Shown: one piece after another, positions 27,563-62,810 of the stretch | Layout of the letters: every line of letters starts with the position of its first letter | Position numbering within the stretch: position 1 is the stretch's first letter | Assembly (NCBI RefSeq): GCF_030296555.1 | Contig: NZ_AP027728.1 | Span: 1,984,001-2,048,000, forward strand | Length of the DNA stretch: 64,000 nt | DNA from: Microbacterium suwonense | GTDB lineage: Bacteria; Actinomycetota; Actinomycetes; Actinomycetales; Microbacteriaceae | Reading direction: 5' to 3' | Made by a program: the position numbers and the translations under genes | The notes under the pieces: generated by a model | What the model was told of the DNA's origin: nothing | The model's input: only the letters and a program-made list of their open reading frames with translations | The model's database searches: none

Positions 27563-27627
27563 TGGCGGAGACGGAGGGATTTGAACCCTCGGTCCCCGTG
27601 AGGGGACTCCACCTTAGCAGGGTGGTG
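27563..27627 (-). repeat. Left attachment site: tRNA-Ser 3' fragment
   Basis: These 65 bp are identical to 62746-62810, the 3' part of tRNA-Ser(GCT): anticodon loop, 3' anticodon stem, variable arm, T-arm, acceptor 3' strand and CCA. The D-arm and 5' acceptor strand are absent; the next bases (TGCGCGGTCTAGC) do not match. It cannot give a tRNA. It is best explained as attL of the island. Confidence 0.8.
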
Positions 27628-27879
27628 TGCGCGGTCTAGCTATTCGATCGCCTTGGTGCGCCCATGTCCTTGAGACGACTGAGAACCCCGTAAGTCTGCG
27701 GATTCTCGGCACTATGGCCTCCCGCTCGCCACACACGGGAGATACCGAAAGCACGTCAGAATCGGCCGCCTCGGGATGCTCGGGACACTTTTCGGACACT
27801 TGTCGACACGATGGGGGAGGCGATTCGATCGTTTCGCTTCTGCAGTCGCCGTTCGAGATCGGGTGACGTCCCGCTGAGT

Positions 27880-28116
27880 GGTGGAGTCTCTCGACACCGT
27901 GCGGGTCAGCTGGTTTGAATATGCCGCGTTCAGTTCCGGGATCGCCACCTCCTCGTCGGTCGCGGTGAGGAGCTTCCTGGAGTGCTCGCTGAAGTAGCGG
28001 CGGTCTGCGCCGTCCCACTCATCGTGCTGCTCGATCAGAACGTGCCCTGCCAGGCGCAGGAGCGCGGCCGGGTTCGGGAACGTGCCGACGACATCGGTGC
28101 GGCGTTTGAAGCTCTC
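27880..28116 (-). pseudogene. IS256-family transposase fragment
   Basis: Minus-strand reading gives [20 protein letters not shown], then [20 protein letters not shown] and [10 protein letters not shown] ending near VAIPELNAA, the C-terminal part of a Mutator/IS256-type transposase. The N-terminal two thirds, with the DDE residues, are missing. It is cut at 28116 exactly where the IS110-type sequence begins. Between 27628 and about 27880 I see nothing recognisable. Confidence 0.7.
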
Positions 28117-29195
28117 ATGTCAAGAGTTCGTGTTGAATCGCGTCGCGGATCATGGTGCGGTGGATCGTGTTCGATAGGTGCCTTTTGAGGATGCGCATGG
28201 CTTCACGGCGCGTGTGTCCGCGGGTGATCGCGGCCTGGTAGAGCTCGCGGGCGCGCGGTTCGCAGCGAAGCTGGGTGACTGCGGTTCGGTGGATCGCGGC
28301 GTTCAGTCGGCGGTTCCCGCCGCGGCTGAGCCGGTGCCGCCGGGGCCGGCCTCCGTCCTCTCCGGAGCTCGCTGGGATCGGTGCCGTTCCGTTGAATCTC
28401 GCGAAGCCGGCCTCCGTGAACGGCGCGGGTCGCCGACCTCGAGGAGAATCTCCGCGGCAGTGCGCACGGCGATCCCTATGATTGACGGCAGGGCTGATCC
28501 GCTTGCGTCAACGAGCTTGCAGAGCTCCGCTCCAGCGACTTTGTCTTGGGCGAGCACGTCTTTGAGTATATTGCTCCGGCTGCGGATCAGCTTGAGCCGC
28601 AGGCGCCGAACCGGATCGGTGCCCGCACGCGTCCGAGCGCGGCGACCGCGGTGAACCGAGCCCGCGCGGTCGTGCGCTCAGGCAGCCTCGTCCGGATGTG
28701 TTCGGGGAGCTCCTGGATGAGTGCGTCGAGCTCGCCGATGAGCTGGACGCGGATCTTTCGCAGTGAGGTCCTGACGTTGTGCCAGAGCGCGATCTGGTCT
28801 CTGACCGGGTCAGGGGCGGCGGTCGCCGAGTGCTTGAAGGCGTGGGCGAGTCGGTCGTTGGTTTGCGTTTCCGCAGCCACGCGGTGCGCGTCGAGAGGAT
28901 CGGACTTTCCCTCGTACCGACCCCGTTGACGCTGTGCGGTCTTGTGAGGCGGCACGTCCCTGACGTCCAGTCCGTGATCGACGAGGAACTCGGCCAGCGG
29001 GCGGCCGAGCCCGCTGGCTCCTTCAATCCCGATCTTGTGGATCGACCCAATCGATTGCGCCCAACCGAGCGCATCCGCGTGCCCCTTTCCTGTGTTCGCG
29101 AAGTGCTGATGGTCGAGGTCGCGTCCGCTCTCGTCGAGCACGGACGCGGTGAACACCTTCCTGTGGGGATCAACGCCGACGATGATGCTGCCCAA
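28115..29195 (-). pseudogene. IS110-family transposase, frameshifted
   Basis: The first 170 residues are intact: MGSIIVGVDPHRKVFTASVL with the first Asp of the DEDD RuvC-like site, IEGASGLGRPLAEFLVDHG and KSDPLDAHRVAAE. The frame then breaks near 28640. The C-terminal transposase domain with its catalytic Ser region continues in other frames (PSIIGIAVRTAAEILLEVGD; NRRLNAAIHRTAVTQLRCEP) and ends [20 protein letters not shown] at 28115. At least two frame changes make it non-functional. It interrupts or abuts the IS256 fragment. Confidence 0.78.
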
Positions 29196-29279
29196 GGTGG
29201 CTCCCTTGCTGCTTGCCTAATCTGGATGGCGGGAGCCAACGCGACAACATCCCAGTCGAGTGATCGACGCTCTCATCAA

Positions 29280-30887
29280 GTCAGCGTGGGTTCCCTGTGA
29301 CCGCGGCGGGACGACACTTCAAACGGAAGGCAGGCCGCGCGGTAGCGGTCGAGATAGGCGATGAAGCCGGCGACGTCGACGGGGTCGGCGGTGGTGAGGA
29401 TGCGGCGGCGAAGACGCTGTCCTCGAGGTACTCCCCCAGCGACTCGCTGCGTCCGAGATACGAGGCGAGCACAGCGATGCCGTAGGCGCCGCCCTCGGAG
29501 GCCAGCTCGCCCACGGCCACGGGTGCGCCGAGCGCACTGACGAAGAAGCGCTGTGCGACGCCGGCCGTGCGGAACATGCCGCCGTGCGCGAACATGCGGT
29601 CGAGCTCGACGCCCTCGGCGGTCAGCACTTGCATGCCGAGGGCGAGGGTGCCGAACACCCCGTACAGCTGCGCGCGCATGAAGTCCGCCAGGGTGAAGGT
29701 GCTGTCAGGGGTGCGGACGAAGAGCGGGCGCCCCTCGGCGAGTCCGGCGATGGGCTCTCCGGCGAGGTGGTTGTAGGCGAGCAGGCCGCCGGCATCCGCC
29801 TCTCCGGCGAGCGCCTTGCGGAAGAGCGCCTCGAAGGCCGCGTCGTCGCTCACCGGCTGCCCCGCCACGGTCGAAAACCGGGTGTACATGCCCGCCCAGG
29901 CGGCGCGCTCGCTGGCGCCATTGTTGCAGTGCACCATCGCTACCGCATCGCCTGCGGGGGTGGTGACGAGGTCGAGCTCGTGGTGCACGCCTGCGAGCGG
30001 ACGCTCGAGGACGACCAGCGTGTAGATGCTCGTGCCGGCCGACACGTTGCCGGTGCGCGGGGCGACCGAGTTGGTCGCGACCGTGCAGGTGCCGGCGTCG
30101 CCCTCTGAAGGGCACAGCAGGGACGCCGGCCGGGTCGCGCCGGTGGGATCGAGCAGCAGGGCTCCGTCGGCGGTCAGGGCGCTGGCGGCGGCGCCGGCCG
30201 GGAGCACGGCGGGCAGTAGCGAGCTCAGCGGCGCCGGGAGGCGGTCGGCGACCAGAGCATCGTAGGCCTGCAGCATCCGCTCGTCGTACCCGCCGGTTGC
30301 GGAGTCGATCGGGAACATGCCCGAGGCGTCGCCGACGACGAGCACGCGCGTGCCCGTGAGCTTCCAGTGCACGTCGGCGGCGAGGGTGGTCACGAAGTCC
30401 AGCTGGGGCACGTGCGCCTCGGCGTCACGACGGCCTGGTGCAGGTTCGCGATCGACCAGCGCAGCGGGATGTTCACCCCCAAGAGCTCGGTGAGCTCGGA
30501 TGCCGCGGTTCCCGTGTTCGTGTTGCGCCAGGTGCGGGAGGTCACGAGCAGCTCGCCTTGCGCGCCAAAGGACAGGTAGCCGTGCGTCATGGCCGAGATC
30601 CCGATCGCCCCGAAGGTCGTCGGGTGCACGCCGTAGCGGTCGTGCGCGTTGTCGGTGAGATCGGCAAACGCCGACTGCAGTCCCTGCTAGACCTCGTCGA
30701 GGCGGTAGGTCCACAGACCGTCCTCGAGCCGGTTCTCCCAGGAGAACGCGCCGGTGGCGAGCACCTCGGTGGCGTCGGAGCCGATCAGGCAGGCCTTGAT
30801 GCGGGCCGAGCCGAACTCGATGCCGAGGCTGGTGCGGCCGGCCAGGTTGTCCGCTCGCTGGGTCCCTGAGCTGTGTCGAAGGGTCAT
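29280..30887 (-). pseudogene. araB: L-ribulokinase-like FGGY kinase, decayed
   Basis: The N-terminus is good ([20 protein letters not shown]) but TAG at 30687-30689 replaces the Trp expected in LDEVWQGLQ. After it the frame resumes (GVHPTTFGAIGISAMTHGYL), shifts near 30430, gives the kinase core (LTGTRVLVVGDASGMFPIDS; VATNSVAPRTGNVSAGTSIY), and shifts again near 29395 to TTADPVDVAGFIAYLDRYRA. The last residues are replaced by sequence next to the IS110 remnant. Three lesions of two kinds mark true decay. The family phosphorylates L-ribulose, or D-xylulose in some relatives. Start overlaps the araD stop by ATGA. Confidence 0.78.
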
Positions 30888-31588
30888 CGGCGGGCGTCCG
30901 CGCTCTGACCGTACACGTTCTGGTACCGATCCCGCAGGAGGCTATCGATAGCCTCCTGCGGGATCGGGATCAGCGGCCCCGCCTCGCGGGCGAGGTGCAC
31001 GGTGCGCGCGACGTCCTCGCCCATGACGGCGGCCTTGACCGCGTCCTTCGCCTTCACGCCGATCGTGAACGGTCCGTGGTTCTGCATGAGCACCGCACGG
31101 CTGCAGTGCCCACGCAGGGTATCGCCGATCCCCCGACCGATCGAGTCGTCGCCGACGATGGCGAACCGGCTGATCGGGATGGGCTCGCCGAACTCGTCCG
31201 CCATGGCGGTGATCATGCAGAGGATTTCCTCCACGCGCGGCCCAGGCCACCGCGTCGTCGGAATGGGTGTGCACGACGCCGCCACCTCGGGCATGTGGCG
31301 GTGAACGTAGGCGTGCGCGGCCGTGTCGCTGGACGGGCTGCGCTCGCTGCCGGCGGTGCCGTCGAGGTCGCACAGGATCATGTTCCCCGGGGCGAGGTCC
31401 TCGTACGAGATGCCCGAAGGCTTGATCACGAAGAGGTCGGTGCCGGGAACGCGGCCCGAGACGTTGCCGCCGGCCCAGACGACTCAGTTGTACCGGACCA
31501 GCTCGCCGTGCAGGCAGGCGACGTCCTCTCGGACGGTCTGAATGGCGGCTTCGACCTCGGGGGTGAAGGCGGGGGCTTCGCTGCTCAC
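30884..31588 (-). pseudogene. araD: L-ribulose-5-phosphate 4-epimerase, decayed
   Basis: A class II aldolase-family epimerase. Starting from GTG at 31588 (GAGG upstream), the frame hits TGA in RYN*VVWAGGNVSGRVPG. Downstream it runs on as VIKPSGISYEDLAPG. Between about 31229 and 31288 the zinc-binding HTHS segment is read in another frame (GGVVHTHSDDAVAWAARG), so there are two compensating shifts. The end GDDSIGRGIGDTLRGHCSRA and LMQNHGPFTIGVKAKDAVKA is intact. It would convert L-ribulose-5-P to D-xylulose-5-P. araA (isomerase) is absent, perhaps lost with the IS110 event. Confidence 0.8.
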
Positions 31589-31677: not shown

Positions 31678-33810
31678 TCAGGCATCGGCGGGCGGGTCGC
31701 GGCGGATGATTCCCAGTGCGCTGGGTCGAGCGTCGGCTCGGACGAACACCGGTATCTGCTCGATCGGCGCCGGCACTGTCACCCACTGGGCTCCTGCGTA
31801 CTCGTCACCGGTCGCGCTGTGGAGCCACACCGCACCGTCGGGCAGATACACCCTGCGCTGCCGCGCTCCCGGCTCCACCACGGGCGCTACAAGCAGATCG
31901 GGACCCAGCAGGTACTGGTGCTTCACGTCCCATACGGCGGCATCGTCGGGGAACTCGAGGAACATGGCGCGCATCGCGGGGAGGCCCGATTGAGAAGCTT
32001 CCGCCATCACTTCCCGCAGGTAGTCGCGCAGCGTCTCACGCAGCAGGATGTGCTCGCGCATGATCCGGTATGCCGCGTCCCCGTAGCTCCACACCTCGTT
32101 CGGCGCGCCGCTGGGCAGCCGACGCGACCCGTCGGCTGCGGCGACCTGCTCAGCAGGCTGACGGTCGCCGTGCATCCGCATGACCGGGCTGAAAGTGCCG
32201 AATTGGAACCACCGGAGCAGCAGTTCGATGAAGGCCGGGTCTTCGATGTCGCCGCTGTGGAAGCCGCCGATGTCAGTCGTGAACCAGGCGATCCCGGCGA
32301 GACCAATGTGGGTACCCGCCGTGATCTGCTGCTGAAGCGCGGTCCAGGTCGACCCGATGTCGCCCGACCAGACCAGAGCACCATATCGCTGACTGCCCGA
32401 CCACGCCGCTCGGACGAGGCTCAGCGTTTCCTGTCCTCCGGCAGTGGAACCATCATGGATGGACCTGAGGAACAGCTGCGGATAGAGAGCTCCGACCTGC
32501 TGTCCTGAGCCGAGCGCGTACCGATAGCTGTCATAGTCGTAGACGCCGTACTCGGGCTCGGCCTCATCGAGCCAGAACAGGCGGATGCCATGGACGCCAT
32601 AGTTCGCGGACAGCTTCCGCCAGAGGTAGTCGCGCCCCTCTTGGGCGGTGACATCGATGAACGCGCTCGGTCCTTCGAAAGACATCTGCACATCTATCCC
32701 GCGCTCGGCTCGCACCAGGAGGTTGTGCTTCTTCATCTCGGCGAAGTTCTCCGAGTTCAGTGATACCTGGGGCCAGACCGACACCATCAGCTCGATGCCG
32801 AGTTCACGCAGCTCCTCGACCATCGCGGTCGGGTCCGGCCAGAATTCCTCATCGAAGCGGTAGTCGCCCATGTGCGGCCAATGAAAGAAATCTGCGACGA
32901 TGACGTCCATCGGCAGTCCGCGGGCGACGTGCTCGCGCGCAACGCTCAGAAGCTGCTCCTGGTTCCAGTAGCGCAGTTTGGACTGCCAGTAACCAAGGCC
33001 ATACTCCGGCATGGCGGGTGGGTGGCCGGTGGCATCCGCATAGGAGCTCACGATGTCACGGGGGCGGACCCCGGCGGTGACCCAATAGTCCAGCTGTCTT
33101 GTCGACTCGGCCGACCACTGAGTGACATTATCGGCGAAGGTCGCCTGACCCACAGCGGGATTGTGCCATAGCATCCCGTACCCACGACTGGAGATCACGA
33201 ACGGTATCGATATCTGCGAGTTGCGGTGCGCCAACTCGAACGTGCAGCCCTTGATGTCGAGCACGTCCTGCTGGTACTGGCCCATGCCGTAGAGCTTCTC
33301 ATCGGGATGAGCCGTGAACGAGGCACGCACGGCGAAGTCTCCTCCGAGATGAGGGTGCCAGTCGCGGGCCCTGCGGTGCAGTGCCCCGCCTTCGCTGAGT
33401 TCCTCGAGGAGCAGCGTTCCATCGGCATCGTGGAACGATAGCCGGCAGCGATTCTCCTCATAACCAGTCTGATATCCGTAGCCGCTCCACGAGGTGAGCC
33501 GCACGACCAGGCGCCCGTTACGGAGCTCTGCAGTGTTGCCGTCGACCGTGACGACTGCTCGCGTCTGCGCAGCGTCGAGCAGGGAGTAGCGAGTGTCCTC
33601 CAGTTGCCCCTTGATCGTCGCCCGCACTCGCACACTGTCGACTCCCCACGGATCCACCCGGAGGACCTCACCGTCGCCCCGCCACACGATCGAGGCTCCG
33701 TCTACCTCGAAGTGCTCGATGGGAGTGCGACCGGAACCGTCAGGAGACGGCGAAGGCTCCATCACGGCATCGCCGCCGTCGCCGAATTCATCCTGGGAAT
33801 CGAATATCAT
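31678..33810 (-). CDS. GH31 alpha-xylosidase/alpha-glucosidase
   Basis: A 710-residue GH31 enzyme. The N-terminal beta domain (residues about 30-245) is followed by the barrel. The nucleophile is Asp415 in FWLDEAEPE and the acid/base Asp484 in WSGDIGSTW. Distal beta domains follow. The Leu-Asp-Glu-Ala-Glu-Pro-Glu context is closer to alpha-xylosidases than to the KxDFGE group. No signal peptide, so it acts on imported oligosaccharides, perhaps removing alpha-xylose from xyloglucan fragments. It follows GH35 in the operon. AAAGG lies 10 bp before the ATG. Confidence 0.85.
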   Translation of the reverse strand: MIFDSQDEFGDGGDAVMEPSPSPDGSGRTPIEHFEVDGASIVWRGDGEVLRVDPWGVDSVRVRATIKGQLEDTRYSLLDAAQTRAVVTVDGNTAELRNGRLVVRLTSWSGYGYQTGYEENRCRLSFHDADGTLLLEELSEGGALHRRARDWHPHLGGDFAVRASFTAHPDEKLYGMGQYQQDVLDIKGCTFELAHRNSQISIPFVISSRGYGMLWHNPAVGQATFADNVTQWSAESTRQLDYWVTAGVRPRDIVSSYADATGHPPAMPEYGLGYWQSKLRYWNQEQLLSVAREHVARGLPMDVIVADFFHWPHMGDYRFDEEFWPDPTAMVEELRELGIELMVSVWPQVSLNSENFAEMKKHNLLVRAERGIDVQMSFEGPSAFIDVTAQEGRDYLWRKLSANYGVHGIRLFWLDEAEPEYGVYDYDSYRYALGSGQQVGALYPQLFLRSIHDGSTAGGQETLSLVRAAWSGSQRYGALVWSGDIGSTWTALQQQITAGTHIGLAGIAWFTTDIGGFHSGDIEDPAFIELLLRWFQFGTFSPVMRMHGDRQPAEQVAAADGSRRLPSGAPNEVWSYGDAAYRIMREHILLRETLRDYLREVMAEASQSGLPAMRAMFLEFPDDAAVWDVKHQYLLGPDLLVAPVVEPGARQRRVYLPDGAVWLHSATGDEYAGAQWVTVPAPIEQIPVFVRADARPSALGIIRRDPPADA

Positions 33811-33951
33811 CGGTTCTCACACCTTTCATTGCGTCAGAAGCATCCCGCTTGACCATCCCTTTACCGTCACGAGAACCGACGCGCGCAGAGCTCACCGCAG
33901 CGCCCTGAATTCGTCGCCCACGAACTTCGCCCGTGCGCCGGCTGCCACTCA

Positions 33952-35685
33952 TCATTCCTCCTCCGGTCCCAGCGATGGCCGCGGGAGAAAACGGGCGATT
34001 GTGTCCACTCCGGTCTCCAACTCGACCACTGCCAGCTCATTGATCCCGGAGCGCAGTACAGGCGCCGGCACGTACAGGGTGCGCTGCGGGCCGCTGCGCC
34101 AATATCGACCGAGCAGGAATCCATTCACGAGCGCGAAGCCCTTGCCCCATGACGAAGAGTCCAGGAAGAGATCCCCGGGCACCGCGAGCTCAAACGTTCC
34201 GTACAGCACTATCGGGCTATCGAGGGCATCGCCGACCGGCGCCAGTGCGGCCGCCGCAGCGAGTTCGTGCAGGTCGACCGGAGCGGCGGACCATCCGGTC
34301 AGAACGACGTCGTCGAGCGTGACCGCTCCGATCAGGCCCTTCGGCTCGCCCAGACGCTGGTCGTAGTTGACGCGACCCTGCTCCTCGACGAACACACGCA
34401 GTCGTGAGCCGCTCGGGATCCGCAGGGCTCTCTCCTGACGAGTGCGTGACAGGGTGCCCACCCTTTTCCCATCCACCGAGATCCACGCCTGATCGCGGAT
34501 CTCGCCGAACCGCAGTGTGCCGCCGCGTCCGCCCAGATCGACCTCATAGGCGACCAGGGCGCCGAGATGCCCGATTCCGTCGAAGGTTGGCGGTTCGCTG
34601 TACCGCGTCTCGTCGGGGCCGGGGAGCGGAACGGCAACCGGCGCAAGCGCGACTTCGAACGTCGGCGCATCCGCCGAAGCCTGCACCGTCTCTTTCGGCA
34701 CGGACGCGTATTTCGCGATCACATCCCGGAAGGCGAAGAACTTCTCTGTCGGGTCGCCGGCCTCGTCGAGCGGCGCGTCGTAGTCGTACGACGTCACGAT
34801 CGGCAGGTAGCGACCCTTGTCGTTCGCACCGTTGGTGAGTCCGTAGTTCGTGCCACCGTGGAACATGTAGAAGTTCACGGAGGCACCCGCGGCGAGCAGT
34901 GCGTCCAGCTCAGCGGCTGAGTCCGCGGGTGCCGTGGTGTGGTGCACGGTGCCCCACCAGTCGAACCAGCCGTCCCAGAACTCCGCGCACATCAGCGGTC
35001 CAGTCGGCTGGTGACGGCGCAGTGTCTGCAACCGCTCTCCAGCCCGCGAGCCGAAGGAGCCGGTCTTGTGCAGCTCGGGCAGGCTGCCGTCGGAGAGCAT
35101 ACGATCGGTCGGCTGGTCGATGGTGGTCAGCGGCACCTCGATCCCCGCGTCGCGGGTGACGCTCACCAGATGCCGCAAGTAGGTCTTGTCCGCTCCATAG
35201 GCGCCATATTCATTCTCGATCTGCACGAGCACGACGGGTCCGCCGCGGTCGATCTGCCGCGGCTCGACGATCTCGTACACCCGTCGCAGATAGTCGGAGA
35301 CGGCATCGAGGTACTGCGGCTCGGAACGGCGCAGTCCGATGCCCTCGCTGCCGGTGAGCCACACCGGCAGCCCACCGTTGTGCCACTCCGCGCAGATATA
35401 CGGACCGGGCCGCACGATCGCGTGCATGCCCTCGGCAGCGATCAGGTCGAGGAAGGCTCCGAGATCGTTCCAGCCGGTGGCATCCCACTCGCCGCGCCGC
35501 GGCTCATGCGCATTCCACGCCACATACGTCTCGATGGTGTTCAACCCCATCAGCCGCGCCTTGCGGATGCGGTCGGCCCACTGCTCCGGGTGCACGCGGA
35601 AGTAGTGAACGGCACCGGAGAGGATACGGTGCGGCTGTCCGTCGAGCAGGAAATCATCCTGTCCAATCCGGAATCGAGATGTCAT
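33952..35685 (-). CDS. GH35 beta-galactosidase
   Basis: A 577-residue GH35 enzyme. SGAVHYFRVHPEQWADRIRK opens the barrel; YVAWNAHEPRRGEWDATG and RPGPYICAEWHNGGLPVWLT are family hallmarks. The acid/base is Glu159 in IENEYGAYG and the nucleophile Glu235 in CAEFWDGW. C-terminal beta-sandwich domains end with LFLDSSSWGKGFALVNGFLL. No secretion signal. It would remove terminal beta-galactose from imported plant oligosaccharides such as xyloglucan or galactan side chains. Its 5' end overlaps the extended frame of the upstream GH27 gene. Confidence 0.9.
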   Translation of the reverse strand: MTSRFRIGQDDFLLDGQPHRILSGAVHYFRVHPEQWADRIRKARLMGLNTIETYVAWNAHEPRRGEWDATGWNDLGAFLDLIAAEGMHAIVRPGPYICAEWHNGGLPVWLTGSEGIGLRRSEPQYLDAVSDYLRRVYEIVEPRQIDRGGPVVLVQIENEYGAYGADKTYLRHLVSVTRDAGIEVPLTTIDQPTDRMLSDGSLPELHKTGSFGSRAGERLQTLRRHQPTGPLMCAEFWDGWFDWWGTVHHTTAPADSAAELDALLAAGASVNFYMFHGGTNYGLTNGANDKGRYLPIVTSYDYDAPLDEAGDPTEKFFAFRDVIAKYASVPKETVQASADAPTFEVALAPVAVPLPGPDETRYSEPPTFDGIGHLGALVAYEVDLGGRGGTLRFGEIRDQAWISVDGKRVGTLSRTRQERALRIPSGSRLRVFVEEQGRVNYDQRLGEPKGLIGAVTLDDVVLTGWSAAPVDLHELAAAAALAPVGDALDSPIVLYGTFELAVPGDLFLDSSSWGKGFALVNGFLLGRYWRSGPQRTLYVPAPVLRSGINELAVVELETGVDTIARFLPRPSLGPEEE

Positions 35686-37077: not shown

Positions 37078-37114
37078 GAGATCCTTCCCTCGGATGTTCG
37101 GTGTGCCGGGCGGA

Positions 37115-38125: not shown

Positions 38126-38161
38126 GACAACTCCCCTCGAACACCGCAGATCCGCCGCCGC

Positions 38162-52390: not shown

Positions 52391-52407
52391 GTACGCAGCC
52401 TATCGCA

Positions 52408-52433: not shown

Positions 52434-52450
52434 CTGTTAGGGTATGCCGC

Positions 52451-52816
52451 ATGAACGTCGCCCTTTGGATCGTCACCGGGATCCTCGCCGCCATGTACCT
52501 CTTCGCCGGCCTCACGAAATCCTTCACGCCGAAGGATAAGCTCGCGGCGAACATGCCCTGGGTTGAGGATTTCTCGCCGGGGATCGTGACGTTCATCGGC
52601 GTCGCCGAGTTCGCGGGCGCCGTGGGGCTCGTGCTGCCGTGGCTCACAGGGATCGCACCGGTGCTCACTCCGCTCGCGGCGACGGGACTCGTGATCGTGC
52701 AGATCCTCGCCATCGTCGTGCACGTCCGCAGGGGTGAGCAGAAGAGCCTCCCGTTCAACGTTGTGCTGCTGCTCGCGGCGCTGTTCGTCGCGATCTTCCG
52801 CTTCGTTCAGCTCTGA
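52451..52816 (+). CDS. DoxX family membrane protein
   Basis: A 121-residue protein with four hydrophobic segments and the DoxX-type start MNVALWIVTGILAAMYLFAG. Start set at 52451; the longer frame reads through the operator. Some DoxX-like proteins take part in redox stress complexes; the role here is unknown. It shares the TetR operator with the flavin monooxygenase operon, so it is probably induced with it. Confidence 0.82.
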   Translation: MNVALWIVTGILAAMYLFAGLTKSFTPKDKLAANMPWVEDFSPGIVTFIGVAEFAGAVGLVLPWLTGIAPVLTPLAATGLVIVQILAIVVHVRRGEQKSLPFNVVLLLAALFVAIFRFVQL

Positions 52817-52842
52817 GGCCAGCCATCTCGGCTGGTTCCCGC

Positions 52843-54572: not shown

Positions 54573-54640
54573 CGGTGGGCCTCCCGTCTGAATCTCGTCC
54601 GGTCTTCACCCTGTGCCGCGTCGGGCGACCGGCTGAAGCG

Positions 54641-55120
54641 TTACTCGTCGGTTGTCGGCACGTTGGCGGCGCTCTGCACCGCGCGGAGGAGGGCGCGGAC
54701 GCCCTGGGTGAGCGCTCGGAGGTCGTCGATTGCGAGGAGCCCGAGCGGGCTGCTGCTGAGCTCTGGGCGGGCTGCCATCAGGCGCTGCACGGTCTGAAGC
54801 CCGAGCGGGGTCGCGGTGACCCGGCGCACCCGCTGATCGTTCGGATCGAGGCTGCGCTCCACCATGTGCTGCGCCTCGAGGCGATCAACGATCCCGGACA
54901 TAGTCGCCAGCGACACACCGACCGTCTTGGAGACGGCCTGCATCGTGCTCCCGTCTGGATGGGCGACGAGGATCATCAACACCTTGAGCTGCTGCATCGT
55001 GAGCCGCAACGACAGCATCGGCTCGATGTGCTCGGGCACGAACGATGACTCCAAGGCGGCCTGCAGGCTGAGCAGCTCGGCGAGGAGCGTCTCGCGTTCT
55101 ACTTCTTCATGTGTACTCAC
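54641..55120 (-). CDS. MarR family regulator, divergent from RND pump
   Basis: A 159-residue winged-helix regulator: LTMQQLKVLMILVAHPDGST, recognition helix GVSLATMSGIVDRLEAQHMV, wing DQRVRRVTATPLG. Divergent from the RND gene with a palindromic site between, so a likely repressor of both. Helices at both ends give the dimer. Confidence 0.86.
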   Translation of the reverse strand: MSTHEEVERETLLAELLSLQAALESSFVPEHIEPMLSLRLTMQQLKVLMILVAHPDGSTMQAVSKTVGVSLATMSGIVDRLEAQHMVERSLDPNDQRVRRVTATPLGLQTVQRLMAARPELSSSPLGLLAIDDLRALTQGVRALLRAVQSAANVPTTDE

Positions 55121-55165
55121 GCCTCAAAACTACCTTTCGCTCTCAGGCGCAACTCAGCGCGGGTT

Positions 55166-55184
55166 GCTTAGTCCTATACTAAGC
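55166..55184. promoter_or_regulatory. MarR operator over the RND promoter
   Basis: GCTTAGT-CCTAT-ACTAAGC, 7-bp arms with a 5-bp spacer. TATACT at 55175-55180 is a very good -10 box on the plus strand, inside the palindrome. A repressor here would block RNA polymerase directly. The start point predicted from this -10 is at or just before the GTG at 55190. Confidence 0.65.
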
Positions 55185-55189
55185 TTTGC

Positions 55190-58100
55190 GTGGCGCTAAC
55201 CATATTCGGCGATGCCCGCACTCTCTTGTCCTCCAACCGTTCGGTGGTATCTCTTTTGTTCCGACTCGCTCGCTTCAGCCTGGCCAACCGGACGTTGGTC
55301 GCGCTCATCACCATCCTGATCGCCGGGTTCGGCGTGTTCTCGATGACGCAGCTCAAGCAGGAGCTCATCCCCTCGCTCTCGCTCCCCCAGACCACGGTGG
55401 TGACCATGGTTCCGGGCGCCAGCCCCGAGGTGATGGATGAGCAGGTGAGCGTGCCGATCTCACGCGCGATCACCGATCTCGACAACGTCGAGCAGGTCGT
55501 CGCCACCTCCTCGTCGAGCATGTCGATGGTCTCGATCGCGTACACCTACGGCACCGACGCGAACGAGTTCCGGGCCTCGGTCGAGCAGGCACTGAACTCC
55601 ATCTCTGCGACGCTCCCGAGCGACGCAGACCCGCAACTGATCTCGGGCAGCACCTCCGACATCCCGGTGATCTTCATGACCGCTTCGGGGTCGGAAGATG
55701 ACATCACGGCCCTGTCCAACACGCTCACGGACACCGTGGTCCCCAAACTCGAGTCGATCTCGGGTGTGCGCTCTGCCGCAGTTTCGGGCGGCGCGGTCGA
55801 GCGGGTCGTGATCACGCCGGATCAGGCGGCGCTCGCGACGAACGGTCTGGGCCCGCAGGCGCTCAGCGAGGCGCTCAAGGCGAACGGGGTGACGCTGCCG
55901 CTCGGCAGCGTCACCGAGGACGGGGCGTCGCTGCCGGTGCAGGGCGGTACTGCGGTCGAATCCCTCGACGCCATCACGGGGCTGCCGCTCGCCAGCCAGA
56001 CGCAGCCCGGCACGGTGATCACCATTGGCGACGTCGCAACCGTCGAGCTCGTCACCGAGCCGCAGACCTCGCTCACCCGGATGGACGGCGAGGAGGCGCT
56101 GTCGATCTCGATCACCGCGAACCAGGACGCCGACATCGTCGCGATCTCCCACGCGATCGGCGACGCGATCGCCGAGCTCGAAGACGAGGTGCCCGGCCTC
56201 TCGCTCACGATCGTGTTCGATCAGGCCCCGTTCATCGAGGAATCGATCCAGCATCTCGCGATCGAGGGCCTGCTCGGCCTGCTCTTCGCGATCGTCGTCA
56301 TCCTGATCTTCCTGCTGTCGCTGCGCTCCACGATCGTCACCGCGATCTCGATCCCGCTGTCGGTGCTGGTGACCTTCATCGGCCTGAATCTCGGCGGGCA
56401 CTCGCTGAACATGCTCACCCTCGGTGCTCTCACGATCGCGATCGGCCGCGTGGTCGACGACTCGATCGTCGTCATCGAGAACATCAAACGGCACCTCTCC
56501 TACGGGGAGGAGAAGGTGCACGCGATCCTCACCGCCGTGCGCGAGGTCGCCGGCGCGATCACGTCCTCCACACTGACGACCGTGGCCGTGTTCCTGCCGA
56601 TCGCCCTGGTCGGCGGAATGGTGGGCGAGCTGTTCGCCCCGTTCGCGCTGACGGTCACGATCGCGATGCTGTCGTCGCTGCTCGTGGCGCTCACGATCGT
56701 CCCGGTGCTGTCGTACTGGTTCCTGCGCGCGCCGAAGGACGTCACCAACGTCGAGGCGGTGCGTCTCGCAGCTGAGGAGAAGGAGCACAACAGCTGGCTG
56801 CAGCGCGGCTACAAGCCGATCCTGCGCGGCACCCAGAAGCACCCGGTCATCACGATCGTCTCCTCCGTGCTGCTGCTCGTGATCACCGTGTCGCTGGTTC
56901 CCCTGTTGAAGGTCGACTTCCTGGGGAGCACCGGGCAGAACATGATCATGGCCACCCAGACCTTCCCCGCAGGCTCCGACCTCGACACCGTCTCCGACGG
57001 CGCCCGCGACGTCGAGGATGCGCTGCTCGACATCGACGGCGTGGAAGACGTCATGCTCATGGCCGGTTCCAGCGGGGGCGGCTCGGGCGACTTCTCCGCC
57101 CTTCTCGGCGGAGGCGGCGGCACGGCCACCTTCATCGTGAACACCGACTCGAAGGCGGACCAGAGCGCACTGCAGGACAAGGTGCGCGACCGCCTCGCGG
57201 AGCTAGACGGTCCCGGCGAGGTGAGCCTCATGGACGCCGCGTCGATGGGCGGCTTCGGCGGCTCGGTCGACGTGCTCGTCACCGGCACCAACGACGCCGA
57301 TCTCGCCGAGGCGGCGGAGGCCGCCTATGCAGCGCTCGAGGACACGCCCCACACCACTGAGGTGTCGAGCGATCTCGCCCCCGCGCAACCGATCACCCAG
57401 GTCACGGTCGACCGGAAGGTCGCCCTCGAGCACGGCTTCACCGAGATCCAGCTGCTCGGCATGGTCGGCAGCATCCTCTCCCCGCAGAGCATCGGCAACG
57501 TCACCATCGACAACGAGGAGTACCGCATCTTCCTCGACGCGGCCCCGGCGCCCGAGACCATCGCGGAGCTCCAAGATCTGCAGATCCCCACGGCAACGGG
57601 CATGGTGCCGCTGACCGAGCTCGCATCGGTGGAGAAGGTCACCGTGGCGACATCGCTGACCCGTCAGGACGGCGACCTCGTCGCGACGATCTCACTCACC
57701 CCCGCAGAGGGCGAGCTGGGAGCAGTGACCACCGAGGTGCAGGAGCGAATCGACGGCCTCGACCTGCCGGCCGGCACCACCGCGACCATCGGCGGCCTGG
57801 CGCAGACCCAGCAGGAATCCTTCCAACAGCTCGGACTCGCGATGCTGATCGCGATCGCGATCGTGTTCCTGCTGCTCGTCGCCACCTTCCGCTCCCTCGC
57901 GCAACCGCTCATCCTGCTCGTGTCGATCCCGTTCGCCGCGACCGGCGCGATCGTGCTGCTGCTGCTCACAGGCAAGCCGCTGGGCATCTCGGCGCTCATC
58001 GGCATGCTCATGCTGATCGGCATCGTGGTCACGAACGCGATCGTGCTCATCGACCTCGTGAACCAGTACCGCAAGCAGGGGCAGAGCGTGCGCGACGCCG

Positions 58101-58417
58101 TGTTCAACGGCGCCCGCCAGCGCCTGCGCCCGATCCTGATGACCGCACTCGCGACGATCTTCGCCCTCATCCCAATGGCACTCGGCGTGACCGGATCGAG
58201 CGGCTTCATCAGCCAGGACCTCGCGATCGTCGTGATCGGCGGCCTCATCTCCTCGACACTGCTCACCCTGCTGCTCGTGCCGGTGCTCTACCTGCTCTTC
58301 GAGGACGGCCGGGAACGCCGCCGGGTCAAGAAGCAGCAGGCGCAGCGGCCGGTCACGGCAGGTACCGGCCTGCCGAGCGCGGGAGCATCGGGCGAGCCGA
58401 GCGCAGCGCAGTCATAG
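55190..58417 (+). CDS. RND (HAE/AcrB-like) efflux permease
   Basis: A 1075-residue inner-membrane proton-driven pump of the AcrB/SwrC superfamily. Twelve membrane segments in two halves, each with a large outside loop. The proton-relay motif GRVVDDSIVVIENI is in segment 4, GAITSSTLTTVAVFLPIALV in the next loop region, and IVVTNAIVLIDLVNQYRKQG in the second half. No adaptor or outer-membrane gene is near, as in Gram-positive SwrC. The GTG start at 55190 may be leaderless; GTG at 55241 is an alternative. Substrates probably lipophilic drugs or surfactants. Confidence 0.88.
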   Translation: MALTIFGDARTLLSSNRSVVSLLFRLARFSLANRTLVALITILIAGFGVFSMTQLKQELIPSLSLPQTTVVTMVPGASPEVMDEQVSVPISRAITDLDNVEQVVATSSSSMSMVSIAYTYGTDANEFRASVEQALNSISATLPSDADPQLISGSTSDIPVIFMTASGSEDDITALSNTLTDTVVPKLESISGVRSAAVSGGAVERVVITPDQAALATNGLGPQALSEALKANGVTLPLGSVTEDGASLPVQGGTAVESLDAITGLPLASQTQPGTVITIGDVATVELVTEPQTSLTRMDGEEALSISITANQDADIVAISHAIGDAIAELEDEVPGLSLTIVFDQAPFIEESIQHLAIEGLLGLLFAIVVILIFLLSLRSTIVTAISIPLSVLVTFIGLNLGGHSLNMLTLGALTIAIGRVVDDSIVVIENIKRHLSYGEEKVHAILTAVREVAGAITSSTLTTVAVFLPIALVGGMVGELFAPFALTVTIAMLSSLLVALTIVPVLSYWFLRAPKDVTNVEAVRLAAEEKEHNSWLQRGYKPILRGTQKHPVITIVSSVLLLVITVSLVPLLKVDFLGSTGQNMIMATQTFPAGSDLDTVSDGARDVEDALLDIDGVEDVMLMAGSSGGGSGDFSALLGGGGGTATFIVNTDSKADQSALQDKVRDRLAELDGPGEVSLMDAASMGGFGGSVDVLVTGTNDADLAEAAEAAYAALEDTPHTTEVSSDLAPAQPITQVTVDRKVALEHGFTEIQLLGMVGSILSPQSIGNVTIDNEEYRIFLDAAPAPETIAELQDLQIPTATGMVPLTELASVEKVTVATSLTRQDGDLVATISLTPAEGELGAVTTEVQERIDGLDLPAGTTATIGGLAQTQQESFQQLGLAMLIAIAIVFLLLVATFRSLAQPLILLVSIPFAATGAIVLLLLTGKPLGISALIGMLMLIGIVVTNAIVLIDLVNQYRKQGQSVRDAVFNGARQRLRPILMTALATIFALIPMALGVTGSSGFISQDLAIVVIGGLISSTLLTLLLVPVLYLLFEDGRERRRVKKQQAQRPVTAGTGLPSAGASGEPSAAQS

Positions 58418-58440
58418 GTTTCGGCACTGACCGCTGCGGT

Positions 58441-58465
58441 CGCCCTCCCGCCTGGTGGGAGGGCG
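58441..58465 (+). terminator. Terminator after the RND gene
   Basis: CGCCCTCCC-GCCTGGT-GGGAGGGCG, a 9-bp perfect stem, 24 bp after the stop. The run of T after it is weak (GTTTCTTG). Confidence 0.6.
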
Positions 58466-58537
58466 GCCGCAGACCGTTTCTTGCAGTTGTGCAAATGGTG
58501 CGCCACAGCATAGAATGCATGGGTGTAAACTTCTCCT

Positions 58538-59149
58538 CTGGGTCTCCGAGAACGACAACGCCTCGAAGTCGCGGCGGCCATCCATGACGCCGCCGCTGAG
58601 CTCCTCCTCGAGCATGGCTGGACAGCTTCCACCGTCGACATGATCGCGGCGCGGGCCGGCATCTCCACCCGGACGTTCTTCAACTATTTCCCCAGCAAGG
58701 AGGACGCCGCCCTGGGGCTGCAGCCGCTGCACGTCCCCGACCATGCGGCCGCAGCGTTCCGCGAGGGAGACGGCGACCTGTTCGAGCGCGCGGTGCGACT
58801 CACGATGGAGGTCATCCGCACCGCCGTTCCCGACGACGGTCTCGGTGAGCGGCGATCCGAGCTCATCCGCACCCTGCCTGAGCTGCGCGGGCGCCTCAAG
58901 CACTTCTCCACGACCGCCGGCGAACTCATCGAGCCTGTCCTGATCGAGGAGCTCACGAGACGAACCCTGATCGACGAAGACGTGCATGCACAGGACATCC
59001 ACGATGCCGCAACCGCGCTGCGGATGGTCGCCGGCACCGTGGTCCGTTTTGCCTTCGTCAAGAACCCCAGCGCGTGGTCCGGGACCACGACCGAGTCGCT
59101 GACATCCGCCACCGCCCTATTCCGAGAGGTCATCCAGAACCCATCATGA
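58538..59149 (+). CDS. TetR family regulator of MFS pump
   Basis: A repressor of about 203 residues. The HTH reads HGWTASTVDMIAARAGISTR then TFFNYFPSKEDAALGL, close to Mycobacterium-type TetR proteins. The start is unclear: the conserved part (LRERQRLEVAAAIHDAAAEL) begins after a CTG at 58538 with TAA in frame just before. An ATG at 58519 (MGVNFSSG) would need a one-base frame change. The TAGAAT box at 58512-58517 may be its -10. The stop overlaps the MFS start (ATGA). Confidence 0.8.
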   Translation: MGLRERQRLEVAAAIHDAAAELLLEHGWTASTVDMIAARAGISTRTFFNYFPSKEDAALGLQPLHVPDHAAAAFREGDGDLFERAVRLTMEVIRTAVPDDGLGERRSELIRTLPELRGRLKHFSTTAGELIEPVLIEELTRRTLIDEDVHAQDIHDAATALRMVAGTVVRFAFVKNPSAWSGTTTESLTSATALFREVIQNPS

Positions 59150-60819
59150 CAGACGCCAAGATCCAGCCGTCGGCGGAAGCCGCGACGGCGAAACGCAACA
59201 TCCTCCTGCTGTTCTCCACCCTGATGATCGTGATGCTGCTGGCGTCGCTGAGCCAGATGGTGCTCTCCAGCGCCCTGCCCACGATCGTCGGCGAGATGCA
59301 CGGCGTGGAGCACATGACCTGGGTGATCACGGCGTACATGCTCGCCTCCACGATCACGATGCCGGTCTACGGCAAGATCAGCGACCTCGTCGGTCGCAAG
59401 CCGATGCTGATCGCCGCGATCGTGCTCTTCGTGGCCGGCTCGGTCGTCGGCGGCCTCGCGCAGGACATGAACTCCCTCATCATCGGACGGCTCGTGCAAG
59501 GCCTCGGCGGCGGCGGCCTCATGATCCTCTCGCAGGCCGCGATCGCCGACGTCGTGCCCGCCCGCGAACGCGGCAAGTACATGGGCATCATGGGCGGCGT
59601 GTTCGCCGTCTCCTCGGTCGCGGGCCCGCTGCTCGGCGGCTGGCTCACCGAAGGGCCCGGCTGGCGGTGGGCGTTCTGGATGAACGTTCCCCTGGGTATC
59701 CTGGCCGTCGTCGCCACCATCGTCCTGCTGCGCCTGCCGAAGCTGAACCGCACCGAGCGGCCGAGGATCGACTACCTCGGTATGATGCTCCTGGCGATCG
59801 CGACCTCGACGCTGGTGCTGGTCGGCACCTGGGGCGGGTCGATGTACGAGTGGGGGTCGCCGCAGATCATCGGGCTGATCATCGCCACGGTCGTCGTCGG
59901 CGCCCTGTTCGTGCTCGTCGAGTCCCGCGCTTCTGAGCCGGTCATGCCGCTGAGCCTGTTCAAGGACCGGAACTTCAACGTGACCACGATCGCGGGCCTG
60001 CTCATCGCGGTCGCGATGTTCGGTGCCGTCGGCTACCTCCCCACCTACTTCCAGATGGCGGTCGGGGCGAGCGCGACGGCGGCGGGCCTGCTCATGATCC
60101 CGATGATGGCGGCGCTGCTGCTCACCTCCATCGTCACCGGTGCGGTGATCTCGAAGACCGGGAAGTACAAGCTGCTCCCGATCGTGGGCACGGTCATCGT
60201 CGCCCTCGGCGTCGGAATGCTCGCGACCGTGCAGGTCGACACCCCGGTCGCCCTGATCTGCGTCTACATGGCCGTGATGGGCGTCGGGCTCGGCACGAGC
60301 ATGCAGATCCTCACCCTCGTCGTGCAGAACTCCTTCCCGCACAAGATGGTCGGCACCGCGACCGCGGCGAACAACTACTTCCGTCAGGTCGGCAGCAGCC
60401 TCGGCTCCGCCGTCGTCGGTTCGATCTTCGCCACCCGGCTCACGTCGCTGATCACCGAGAAGCTGCCCAGCGGCGGGGCCGGCCCCTCCGACGGCGCGAA
60501 CTCGCTGACCCCGGAACTGATCAAGTCCCTGCCGGAACCCATCCGCAACCTCATCGTCGAGTCCTACAACGAGGCGCTCATCCCGATCTTCATCTACATG
60601 GTGCCTCTGGCCGTCATCACCGCCGTGCTGCTGTGCTTCGTGAAGGAGAAGCCGCTCGCCACCGAGATCAACGCCGAGATCATCCCGGAATCCCTCGCCG
60701 AGGGCCAGCTGATCGCAGACGAGGAACTGCTAGACGGGCTGGAAGAGTCAGTTGCGCCCGCCGGGGCGGGGACGACGCAGGTTCAGCGACCGCGCCTCCG
60801 GCAGATCGCTGAGAACTGA
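59146..60819 (+). CDS. MFS drug exporter, DHA2 (EmrB/QacA) family
   Basis: A 557-residue pump with about 14 membrane segments. SALPTIVGEMHGVEHMTWVI and YGKISDLVGRKPMLIAAIVL are motif D1 and motif A; GPLLGGWLTEGPGWRWAFWM is motif C of proton-drug antiporters. Start at 59146 (MTDAKIQ) from the ATGA overlap with the TetR stop; a longer frame is not supported. The acidic tail is in the cytoplasm. Followed by a strong terminator. Confidence 0.9.
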   Translation: MTDAKIQPSAEAATAKRNILLLFSTLMIVMLLASLSQMVLSSALPTIVGEMHGVEHMTWVITAYMLASTITMPVYGKISDLVGRKPMLIAAIVLFVAGSVVGGLAQDMNSLIIGRLVQGLGGGGLMILSQAAIADVVPARERGKYMGIMGGVFAVSSVAGPLLGGWLTEGPGWRWAFWMNVPLGILAVVATIVLLRLPKLNRTERPRIDYLGMMLLAIATSTLVLVGTWGGSMYEWGSPQIIGLIIATVVVGALFVLVESRASEPVMPLSLFKDRNFNVTTIAGLLIAVAMFGAVGYLPTYFQMAVGASATAAGLLMIPMMAALLLTSIVTGAVISKTGKYKLLPIVGTVIVALGVGMLATVQVDTPVALICVYMAVMGVGLGTSMQILTLVVQNSFPHKMVGTATAANNYFRQVGSSLGSAVVGSIFATRLTSLITEKLPSGGAGPSDGANSLTPELIKSLPEPIRNLIVESYNEALIPIFIYMVPLAVITAVLLCFVKEKPLATEINAEIIPESLAEGQLIADEELLDGLEESVAPAGAGTTQVQRPRLRQIAEN

Positions 60820-60862
60820 ACGGGGGTGGTGCACGGCAGTATCTGCCCTGCACCACCCCCGT
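60820..60862 (+). terminator. Terminator after the MFS gene
   Basis: ACGGGGGTGGTGCA and TGCACCACCCCCGT form a perfect 14-bp stem with a 15-bp loop, beginning at the stop codon. On the other strand it could also end transcription of the MarR gene, which converges from 60870. Confidence 0.75.
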
Positions 60863-60869
60863 CGCCGTA

Positions 60870-61358
60870 TCAGTGGGGCGGGGTGATCCCGCGCCTGGTG
60901 AGTGCCTGCAGCAGCTCCGCAAGATCACTGATCGACTCGGGCGAGCGATCCGAGAGCACCGCGGCGAGCTGTTGCCGGTAAGGGGCGCGGGCTGCCGTCA
61001 TCCGGGCGATACCGAGCGGGGTCATTGCAATCAGCCGGATCCGACCATCGCTCGAGTCGGCTGTACGTTCCACGAGGCCGAGCGTTTCGAGATCTCTGAC
61101 CTGCCGGCTCATCTGACCCTTGTCCGAAGCAAAGCGTTCGACCAGTGTCGACAGACTCACGGGGCCGATCCGTGAGATCGTCAACAGCAGTTTGTAGGCC
61201 GAAGGCGGGAGACCCGGAGCGACCTGTCCCGCGGCGTCTGCATACATGCGGCGCACACCTGCCACGAAGTCCGCAAGCGCGTCGTCGAGGCGCTGCGTCG
61301 CGTCGGCATGTGATCCGTGCGATTCCGGCACGAAAGTGAAATTCGCCGAGCTATCCAT
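60870..61358 (-). CDS. MarR family regulator
   Basis: A 162-residue winged-helix protein: LPPSAYKLLLTISRIGPVSL, recognition helix ERFASDKGQMSRQVRDLETL, wing TADSSDGRIRLIAMTPLG. It is divergent from a broken MFS gene, which may have been its target. Confidence 0.85.
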   Translation of the reverse strand: MDSSANFTFVPESHGSHADATQRLDDALADFVAGVRRMYADAAGQVAPGLPPSAYKLLLTISRIGPVSLSTLVERFASDKGQMSRQVRDLETLGLVERTADSSDGRIRLIAMTPLGIARMTAARAPYRQQLAAVLSDRSPESISDLAELLQALTRRGITPPH

Positions 61359-61438: not shown

Positions 61439-62150
61439 GACACGGTCGACAGACGGATTCTGTACTTGTGCTCGTCCGCCCTGACCTGGTCCGGAACGTT
61501 CGCTCTCCTGACACAGTCTGTGCTTGGCCTCGAGTCGGTCGGGCCGATCCTGGTGGTGGTCGCTGTCCAATCCGCCGGTTTCGCGACTTCTGCCTCGGTT
61601 CGCGGCGCGATCATCCCCGCGCTCGTGCCGGTCGAGTTGATCCCGGCCGCTAAAGCGATCACGTACACTGTCAGCAAGGTTGGACAGGTTCTCGGCCCAC
61701 TGATCATGCTCCCGAACGGGTTCGTCTACGCCTACGGGATCGATGCGCTGCTGTTTACCGTCGCGCTCTATGCCGTCTTCCGGCTACTGACCCTGCCGCG
61801 AGCCGCAGCGACGGGCCGGGCCGGCATCGGCGCGGTCATGGACGGGATGCGTTTCCTCGGCGGCAAACCTGTGCTGCTGACGGCGTTCACGGTCGACATC
61901 ATCGCCATGTTGTTCGCCATCGCCGGTCTCGTGAGTGGATGGATCGGCAAGGTGCAGCGCCAGGTGTCACCCTGACGATCGCCGTGGGAATCTGGTGCGC
62001 CTCAATTGCCGCCGTCGGGCTCTCGCTCACTGTAGCCGCACTGTCCGGGGGCGTGGCACGGGTCGCCTCGTGTTCTCCTGTCCGTCGGGTTCCTATTTCC
62101 GAGAACTTTCTGGGCTCGCCGGCCAGTAGTCGCGACAGTGGGTAGATAGC
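61439..62150 (+). pseudogene. MFS exporter (EntS-like) remnant
   Basis: The frame gives TVDRRILYLCSSALTWSGTF, IPALVPVELIPAAKAITYTV and QVLGPLIMLPNGFVYAYGID, the middle of an MFS_3 (EntS/MefA-like) exporter. The N-terminal three helices are missing. After 61950 there is a deletion and frame change; TLTIAVGIWCASIAAVGLSL continues in another frame. No working transporter can result. Confidence 0.7.
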
Positions 62151-62228
62151 GCATTCGAGTCCCCTCAACATTGAGATGTGAATAGGGCCATTAACCCGGA
62201 TGATGCATATGAATGTCAATAAATGGCG

Positions 62229-62417
62229 CTAGTGCATCGGCTGTGCCTGATTGGCCTGATAAATCGGTGAGATCCACTCCGCAGCGAGCATCGCGAGCGC
62301 CGAAACCACGGCGAGTCCGCCGACCAGGGTCCACATCGCCCAGAGTGGCAACCCTGAGTCCACGAGCGCTCCAGGAAGAACTGCGGCCAACCCCGAAGCG
62401 AGACCAATCGCCACCAA
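62229..62417 (-). pseudogene. C-terminal fragment of an MFS transporter
   Basis: VAIGLASGLAAVLPGALVDS then WAMWTLVGGLAVVSALAMLA is two membrane helices, ending SPIYQANQAQPMH at a stop. This is like the end of an MFS permease. It faces the other MFS remnant, so it comes from a different gene or an inversion. Confidence 0.5.
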
Positions 62418-62442
62418 CTATCCGCGAACCTTGTTCGCAAGT

Positions 62443-62726
62443 TCCCGCTCGGGTTCCGTCGACACGCGCTTCGGCATTTCGCGGCATCGACGTGGCTGAG
62501 ATTGGGCACTCCAGTCAACGAGGTGGCCGAGTATCTCGGAGACGAGGCGCGGACGGTTCTCACGACGTACGCGCACATTCTGGGCGAGGGACAACGCCGG
62601 GATTTCGTCAACAGATCGGCCGCCGCAGAGAGCAGCTCTCAGAATCGCGTACACTCCACGTACACTTGGGACCCAAAATCGACCCAAGCGAGCGATCTGA
62701 GCGACCGGCCGGGCTTCGGAATTTAG
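62443..62726 (+). pseudogene. Tyrosine integrase, C-terminal fragment
   Basis: The reading frame gives FPLGFRRHALRHFAASTWLR, then GTPVNEVAEYLGDEARTVLT and TYAHILGEGQRRDFVN. HALRHFAAS is box II of tyrosine recombinases with catalytic His and Arg; Tyr in TTYAHI is the nucleophile. The usual LGH is LGD. The first two thirds, with the first catalytic Arg, are gone. It lies next to tRNA-Ser, where the integrase of a tRNA-targeting island belongs. Confidence 0.75.
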
Positions 62727-62745
62727 CGTCTGACCAGGATTTTTA

Positions 62746-62810
62746 TGGCGGAGACGGAGGGATTTGAACCCTCGGTCCCCGTGAGGGGACTCCACCTTAG
62801 CAGGGTGGTG
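62746..62810 (-). repeat. Right attachment site inside tRNA-Ser
   Basis: The 65 bp identical to 27563-27627. It spans the encoded CCA, acceptor 3' strand, T-arm, variable arm and the 3' half of the anticodon arm of the intact tRNA-Ser. Confidence 0.8.

Follow-up and report, generated by a model that had tools for sequence, protein, structure and literature searches.

A probable integrative island at tRNA-Ser(GCT) of Microbacterium suwonense, fused at its far edge to a truncated member of an IS481 subclade that likely targets tRNA genes

What entered the chromosome of Microbacterium suwonense beside its tRNA-Ser(GCT) gene, how far does it reach, and which elements account for its two edges? 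These questions arise from a 64,000-nucleotide stretch of the genome (contig NZ_AP027728.1, positions 1,984,001 to 2,048,000; hereafter the window, whose numbering is used throughout unless another locus is named). A preliminary description, made from the sequence of the window, had taken 35 kb of it for a genomic island in tRNA-Ser(GCT) with a dead integrase. We consider it very likely that these 35 kb are the remains of an integrative island in tRNA-Ser(GCT), and that the far edge of the island is fused to a truncated insertion sequence (IS) from a subclade of IS481 elements whose complete members insert at a fixed point in the T-arm. The features of the window are collected in Table 1. Related genomes are denoted by G numbers and loci by L numbers.

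The locus has the features of a tRNA-integrated island: a direct repeat that includes the 3' end of a tRNA, and an intact tRNA with an integrase alongside, here as a C-terminal remnant only. The left and right copies of the repeat are on the same strand, are identical at 65 of 65 positions, and bracket 35.2 kb of the window. A 21-nt probe from the repeat, allowed up to 3 mismatches, matched two places in the whole window, both of them repeat copies (0.01 expected by chance). ARAGORN calls an intact tRNA-Ser(GCT) at the right end. Because the right copy is the 3' part of this minus-strand gene, the island is located beyond tRNA-Ser(GCT), on the 3' side of the gene. The preliminary description had reported a perfect 65-bp repeat at both ends, an intact tRNA at one of them, and an attachment (att) core extending back toward the anticodon, and all of this was confirmed; the core reaches the anticodon stem, and the perfect identity of the left copy ends 3 bp beyond it. 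Past the 65-bp repeat, at 27628-27647, there is weak similarity resembling a D-arm, giving 85 bp at 91% in all. By eye, no such continuation is present in the partial copies of other genomes. The start of the left copy coincides with the end of an IS481-type element (27561/27562).

The integrase remnant reads toward the tRNA and its open reading frame (ORF) stops 19 bases short of it. The remnant contains an HALRH box and a YAH sequence, which we take to be a tyrosine-integrase motif with the presumed catalytic tyrosine. Its match to PF00589 is weak (20.2 bits, under the cut-off of 27.1). The best relatives that we saw are an integrase of 373 amino acids (aa) in G090 and one of 374 aa in G098, each adjoining tRNA-Ser(GCT). 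The remnant aligns only with residues 275-352 of these proteins, at 73 and 74% identity. Since about 274 N-terminal residues are gone, we take the integrase to be dead, as did the preliminary description, which had noted a C-terminal fragment with the HxLRH box and catalytic tyrosine. Part of the remnant was compared by tblastn with 45 loci (E up to 1e-3), giving matches in six relatives (G049, G098, G090, G060, G013 and G018), of which G090 and G098 have full-length integrases of this family. All six also have a second copy of tRNA-Ser(GCT), and in G013 and G018 the integrase match adjoins the tRNA fragment, not the intact tRNA. Phage collections held nothing close to the integrase; the remnant matched 1 of 50,697 phage records, at <60%.

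We found that tRNA-Ser(GCT) is an integration hotspot of the genus. With the tRNA gene as query, matches were obtained in 94 of 99 genomes of the genus (E up to 1e-15), and 13 of the 99, including the genome of the window, have a second copy. Ten of these copies are on the tRNA's own contig. All ten are on the same strand as the tRNA and on its 3' side, at distances that range between 1.8 kb (G040) and 235 kb (G097). The second copy is on another contig in G011, G066 and G102. Second copies are 58-72 bp long, except in G018, where the copy is nearly whole (93 bp, 91%). When eleven partial copies from other genomes were aligned, their ends fell on the anticodon stem or a few bases from it, where integrases with the anticodon stem-loop as core should leave them. 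The island in the window is a record of this hotspot, which spans the genus and has a defined integrase family.

Relatives also indicate what the site looks like without the island, and how much DNA was added. The preliminary description had predicted that the flank ending at 27562 would be joined directly to the tRNA at an empty site, and had proposed comparing GC content and codon use inside and outside the island. In G091, genes g01, g05, g09, g10, g12, g14 and g15 occur in the order of the window, followed 1.2 kb after g15 by tRNA-Ser(GCT), and a 27-bp tRNA remnant precedes the tRNA by 66 bp. The distance between g15 and the tRNA is 0.8 kb in G051. Both relatives lack the island, and in both, left-flank genes reach the tRNA within 1.2 kb. 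The predicted junction itself occurs in G004, where the IS end adjoins an intact tRNA-Ser(GCT). GC content is 0.677 in the 20 kb to the left of the window and 0.684 to its right; within the window it is 0.700 at 1-15.4 kb, 0.687 at 15.4-18.6 kb, 0.633 at 18.6-26.7 kb and 0.652 in the bracketed island. GC content at third codon positions, for genes >400 bp, is 0.874 (1-18.6 kb), 0.787 (18.6-26.7 kb) and 0.841 (island). The island thus differs from its flanks in both measures, modestly (GC 0.652 vs 0.68-0.70; third positions 0.841 vs 0.874).

One part of the preliminary description was not supported, namely that the extra DNA starts at 27563. Both the block at 18.6-26.7 kb and the IS remnant are likewise situated between the native flank and the tRNA, and the sugar genes of this block (18615-25960) were not found before tRNA-Ser(GCT) in G091 or G051. 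Because this low-GC block and the IS remnant lie there, as judged from two relatives and from GC content, the extra DNA most likely runs from 17.1-18.6 kb to 62.7 kb, or about 44-45 kb, of which the 35 kb would be the repeat-bracketed right part. In G044, G055, G002 and G021, g12 is 0.08 to 0.83 kb from tRNA-Ser(GCT). We considered g12 as the sole ancestral neighbor of the tRNA and rejected this, as G091 has the order g12-g14-g15-tRNA. The order of g11, g12 and g13 varies among relatives: in the window g11-g12 lie between g10 and g13 (12801-16049), and in G002, G044 and G055 g10 and g13 are close neighbors and g12 adjoins the tRNA.

Judged from DNA matches, the cargo is a mosaic. We searched with the island in two parts and with the left flank apart, and what follows on shared blocks holds among the matches listed. 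A block of about 8 kb with the ROK, GH2 and ABC transporter genes is present in G049, G043 and G080, and from GH2 onward in G053 and G060; G090 and G014 have its ABC part alone. The sugar block left of the repeat has collinear matches, from 18.7 kb, in G095, G065 and G061. Many relatives have homologues of the FGGY kinase and aldolase, as does the window's own genome at 2.83 Mb, and part of the RND pump region (54687-58318) is 79% identical in G003. None of the genomes holds the whole island and the largest shared collinear block is about 8 kb, so arrival of the cargo in one event is not demonstrated. The preliminary description had the cargo come in as one or more linked insertions that are now fixed; fixation is still suggested by the dead integrase, and a single event cannot be demonstrated for a mosaic.

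The same mosaic would result if the left copy dated from an old integrase event and cargo had afterwards accumulated between the copies through IS activity and homologous exchange, so that there never was a single unit. The IS110 and IS481 remnants and the adjacent fragments of an MFS transporter and the integrase are also consistent with such a history. However, in relatives the same bracket surrounds compact elements, for example about 14 kb in G090 with a full-length integrase. We regard gradual accumulation as possible, and as the less probable course. Other findings, too, weigh against an integrative island of the kind that we propose, besides the absence of the whole island from the genomes matched. 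There is a mild tension between the perfect state of the 65-bp left copy and the bad decay of the integrase. A different tyrosine recombinase ORF in G022 (L040 12961-14271, turned) ends 54 nt from tRNA-Ser(GCT), and G040, G093 and G097 have a partial copy and no match to the window integrase in the stretches examined. Because of these genomes, more than one integrase family may use the tRNA-Ser(GCT) site.

For the integrative island, we envision recombination by its tyrosine integrase between a matching sequence of the element and the 3' part of tRNA-Ser(GCT), which extends from the anticodon stem to the encoded CCA; the architecture is seen in the window and the recombination would account for it. 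Recombination would have kept the tRNA whole and left the 65-bp copy at the far end. Because the integrase is without most of its length, the island would now be fixed, unless an integrase acts in trans. Genomic islands placed in tRNA genes by tyrosine integrases include an anticodon-loop class. The island in the window shares with tyrosine-integrase islands the 3' part of the tRNA as att core, the integrase beside the intact tRNA, the direct repeat at the far end, and island-free relatives. It is unlike them in its dead integrase, its mosaic cargo, and an extra block larger than the bracket. Neither transfer (conjugation) genes nor phage structural genes were seen among the Pfam-scanned island ORFs. 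The element of about 14 kb in G090 (L124) shares with the window the integrase family and tRNA-Ser(GCT), its repeat copy being 62 bp. Among the nine or so further ORFs scanned in it, the cargo is unrelated: a sulfate permease, HSDR_N, GmrSD_N, HEPN and a resolvase. The HSDR_N, GmrSD_N, HEPN and resolvase set is possible defense cargo.

G004 has five complete copies of an IS of about 1.41 kb, to which the element at the left edge of the island is 87-88% identical. Against the IS481 family model NF033577 the window transposase remnant scores 123 bits, under the cut-off of 224 because it is truncated; three complete transposases of the subclade are over the cut-off (249, 254 and 246 bits). The five G004 copies are in five tRNA genes, Leu(gag), Glu(ctc), Ser(gga), Ser(gct) and Ala(cgc), and each has 15-16 bp of the tRNA end repeated at the other end of the IS. 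One of the five duplications is lengthened by chance identity with the IS end, and the copy at tRNA-Ser(gct) adjoins the end of an older copy. In a smaller set of IS loci, a tRNA was called at 19 of 22, the other three being the window copy (L002), L078 and L094. Elsewhere in the window's own genome (G000:C1:2981592-2981672, L007), a 48-bp end of the same IS adjoins the 3' end of tRNA-Ser(CGA).

These elements quite likely belong to a broad IS481 subclade (Actinobacteria, some Chloroflexi and other metagenome-assembled genomes) that accepts nearly every tRNA gene as a target. Its transposase, which has an extra C-terminal domain, would insert the element at the bond next to the T-loop, and the element's own 15-16-bp duplication would restore the tRNA. 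If so, tRNA ends are shared by two unrelated machineries, and the att copies of one can be a target for the other. We searched with four aligned transposases, using one genome per species, and took the best 80 of 219 confirmed loci. The tRNA ends were counted at 68 of the 80, after dropping 12 with <150 nt downstream. A called tRNA was found 56-124 nt past the end of the transposase match at 56 of the 68 loci, on the opposite strand and with its 3' end toward the IS. The tRNAs adjoining these elements are of 20 isotype-anticodon types. On the opposite side of the IS, there was a tRNA within 200 nt at 0 of 58 loci. Eight of the other 12 loci are at a tRNA remnant or a duplicated tRNA end: L147, L173, L180, L195 and L220 have a tRNA remnant with a T-loop motif at the IS end, as by eye do L181 and L186, and in L178 we saw by eye a tRNA end and then another IS end.

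The duplication was scored at 55 of the 80 loci; left out were the 12 short downstream, 8 tRNA or remnant loci short upstream, and L143, L146, L150, L159 and L178. At 41 of the 55, the tRNA end is duplicated to the left of the transposase, with a modal length of 15-16 bp. The duplicate was anchored to the insertion point by script, and the IS terminus directly after it is the independent part of the result: TG follows directly in 40 of the 41, and in L179 the TG is part of one more copy of the tRNA end. In a separate test of duplication, 34 of 49 loci had at least 13 of 15 matching bases (shuffles reached 13 at 1 of 49). Insertion occurs immediately ahead of the T-loop consensus GATTCGAAC, presumably at about 61/62 in standard tRNA numbering. 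Counts of the T-loop motif alone do not separate the motif from tRNA genes.

Complete members of the subclade insert at one fixed point of the T-arm, and the sequences show both the position and the duplication. Because the target duplication rebuilds the tRNA, such insertions should be harmless. Harmlessness itself offers another explanation of the bias, since selection would favor insertions at tRNA 3' ends: the elements might insert anywhere and persist where they do no damage. This is very improbable. Nearly all cases have one fixed point and one orientation, and selection alone would not fix the exact base. In addition, other transposases with the same Pfam domain do not have the bias. 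We took 30 rve_3 loci from a longer list, in 28 related genomes. Five were of the subclade (L224, L225, L226, L236 and L243), four of them with a tRNA within 300 bp and the fifth being the window copy beside its fragment; at the 25 non-subclade transposases, ARAGORN called a tRNA in 0 of 25. It would be the transposase itself that recognizes the T-arm DNA.

Some loci do not fit this targeting and count against it. L143, L146, L150 and L159 (4 of 68) have neither a tRNA nor a T-loop motif, and there is no tRNA at the end of one G048 copy (L094). No left duplication was recognizable at 14 of the 55 loci. L250 in G013, which is one of the 25 non-subclade loci and a distant relative (36% over 219 aa), carries a 14-bp duplication that is not in a tRNA; a 24-bp tRNA-Ser fragment is about 85 nt away. 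Relatives as remote as L250 (about 36%) seem not to share the tRNA targeting.

The transposase of the subclade has D144, D203 and E248 invariant in 29 aligned relatives, which we take to be the DDE catalytic triad. The predicted model of the G004 transposase (mean pLDDT 83.6) consists of N-terminal helices, an RNase-H-like core and a C-terminal beta domain at residues 317-375. By fold it comes closest to IstA, TnsB, Mu transposase and retroviral integrases; TM-scores over the whole chain are modest (0.25-0.40). Like the IS481 family (NF033577), the subclade has an RNase-H core that resembles retroviral integrases and IstA in both sequence and fold. It is unlike the family in having the C-terminal beta domain, which is outside the span of the IS481 model, and a fixed target in the tRNA T-arm.

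Other mobile elements have fixed or safe targets. Ty3 and other retrotransposons that target tRNA genes are eukaryotic and insert near the RNA polymerase III start. They share with the subclade an RNase-H-fold integrase and tRNA genes as a safe target, whereas the subclade inserts inside the T-arm. The target reported for the IS481 member ISLxc2 is NCTAGN (PMC2516522). The ISAjo2 group of the IS1202 family is described in the main text of PMC10132070 as targeting dif sites, with a 5-bp duplication. Like the subclade, that group keeps to a single position and orientation next to a chromosomal site that has a function; unlike the subclade, it has a dif-like target and a 5-bp duplication, and tRNA is mentioned 0 times in that main text (PMC10132070). 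A literature search, with most subscription journals and ISfinder outside its scope, returned no report of tRNA-targeting IS481 elements. The tRNA-specific subclade looks new, and the island is of an ordinary kind. Bacterial safe-site targeting would gain a new case in a compact DDE transposase whose target is built in, nearly universal and harmless. Such a transposase would also change how tRNA-flanked 'island' edges are read, because IS copies at tRNA ends or att remnants can pass for island ends.

The IS could have come to the left edge of the island in either of two orders. It may have preceded the island at the tRNA, the position that it has in G004 at present, and been pushed away with the left copy, or it may have landed on the left copy later. 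IS copies beside tRNA remnants recur: they are found in the window, in G093, and at L147, L173, L180, L195 and L220. In G093 (L130 867-2157), a full-length subclade transposase (47%) is directly left of a partial tRNA-Ser(GCT) copy, as in the window. No subclade transposase occurs in the stretches that surround the other ten aligned partial copies.

We also considered two other origins of the left copy. It might be a decayed duplicate of the tRNA-Ser gene and not an att site, to which the weak similarity into the D-arm and the nearly whole second copy of G018 would correspond. But the perfect identity stops just past the anticodon stem, partial copies in relatives end near the same place, and integrases of the same family adjoin the tRNA, so that a decayed duplicate is very improbable. 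That duplication of the tRNA end by the IS made the left copy is hardly credible: the IS does end exactly at the left copy, and a subclade IS adjoins the left copy in G093 also, but IS target duplications are 15-16 bp and not 65, none of about 65 bp was seen, and subclade transposases are missing around 10 of the 11 aligned partial copies.

Table 1. Features of the window, from left to right, with the evidence for each.
Feature	Position	Strand	Evidence
Native left flank; genes include g01, g05, g09, g10, g12 (13757-15373, SNF symporter), g14 and g15 (16251-17096)	219-17096		Gene order in G091; GC 0.69-0.70
LacI, amylase, two ABC permeases, solute-binding protein, amylase; extra block left of the repeat, GC 0.633	18615-25960	-	Pfam, GC, relatives
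5'-truncated IS481-subclade element; transposase remnant ORF 26695-27447; right end adjoins left repeat	26713-27562	+	G004 copies, NF033577
Left tRNA-Ser(GCT) 3' fragment (att copy), 65 bp	27563-27627	-	Repeat identity and probe search
IS110 transposase remnant	28587-29156	-	PF01548
FGGY kinase and class II aldolase	29281-31429	-	Pfam
GH31, GH35, melibiase-like, LacI, arabinofuranosidase	31678-39607	-	Pfam
ABC exporter	39665-41518	+	Pfam
ROK regulator, GH2, DUF624, solute-binding protein, two permeases	41583-49395	-	Pfam; collinear block elsewhere in relatives
FMN reductase, luciferase-like monooxygenase, TetR, DoxX, alpha/beta hydrolase	50101-53625		Pfam
RelA/SpoT-domain protein (262 aa), MarR, RND (ACR_tran) pump 55256-58417, TetR, MFS 59146-60819, MarR	53784-61358		Pfam
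MFS fragment, likely pseudogene	61466-61975	+	Weak MFS match under cut-off
Tyrosine integrase C-terminal remnant, reads toward tRNA	62358-62726	+	Homology from ~62403; weak PF00589; full-length relatives
tRNA-Ser(GCT), intact	62746-62837	-	ARAGORN; 62746-62810 is the right att copy

The cargo in Table 1 was assigned from Pfam scans of the island ORFs. The gene calls had shortened the FGGY and GH2 genes; the open ORFs were rescanned, and the idea that GH2 is broken was then dropped. To the left of the repeat, an ORF resembling HepT (26258-26704) adjoins the IS remnant.

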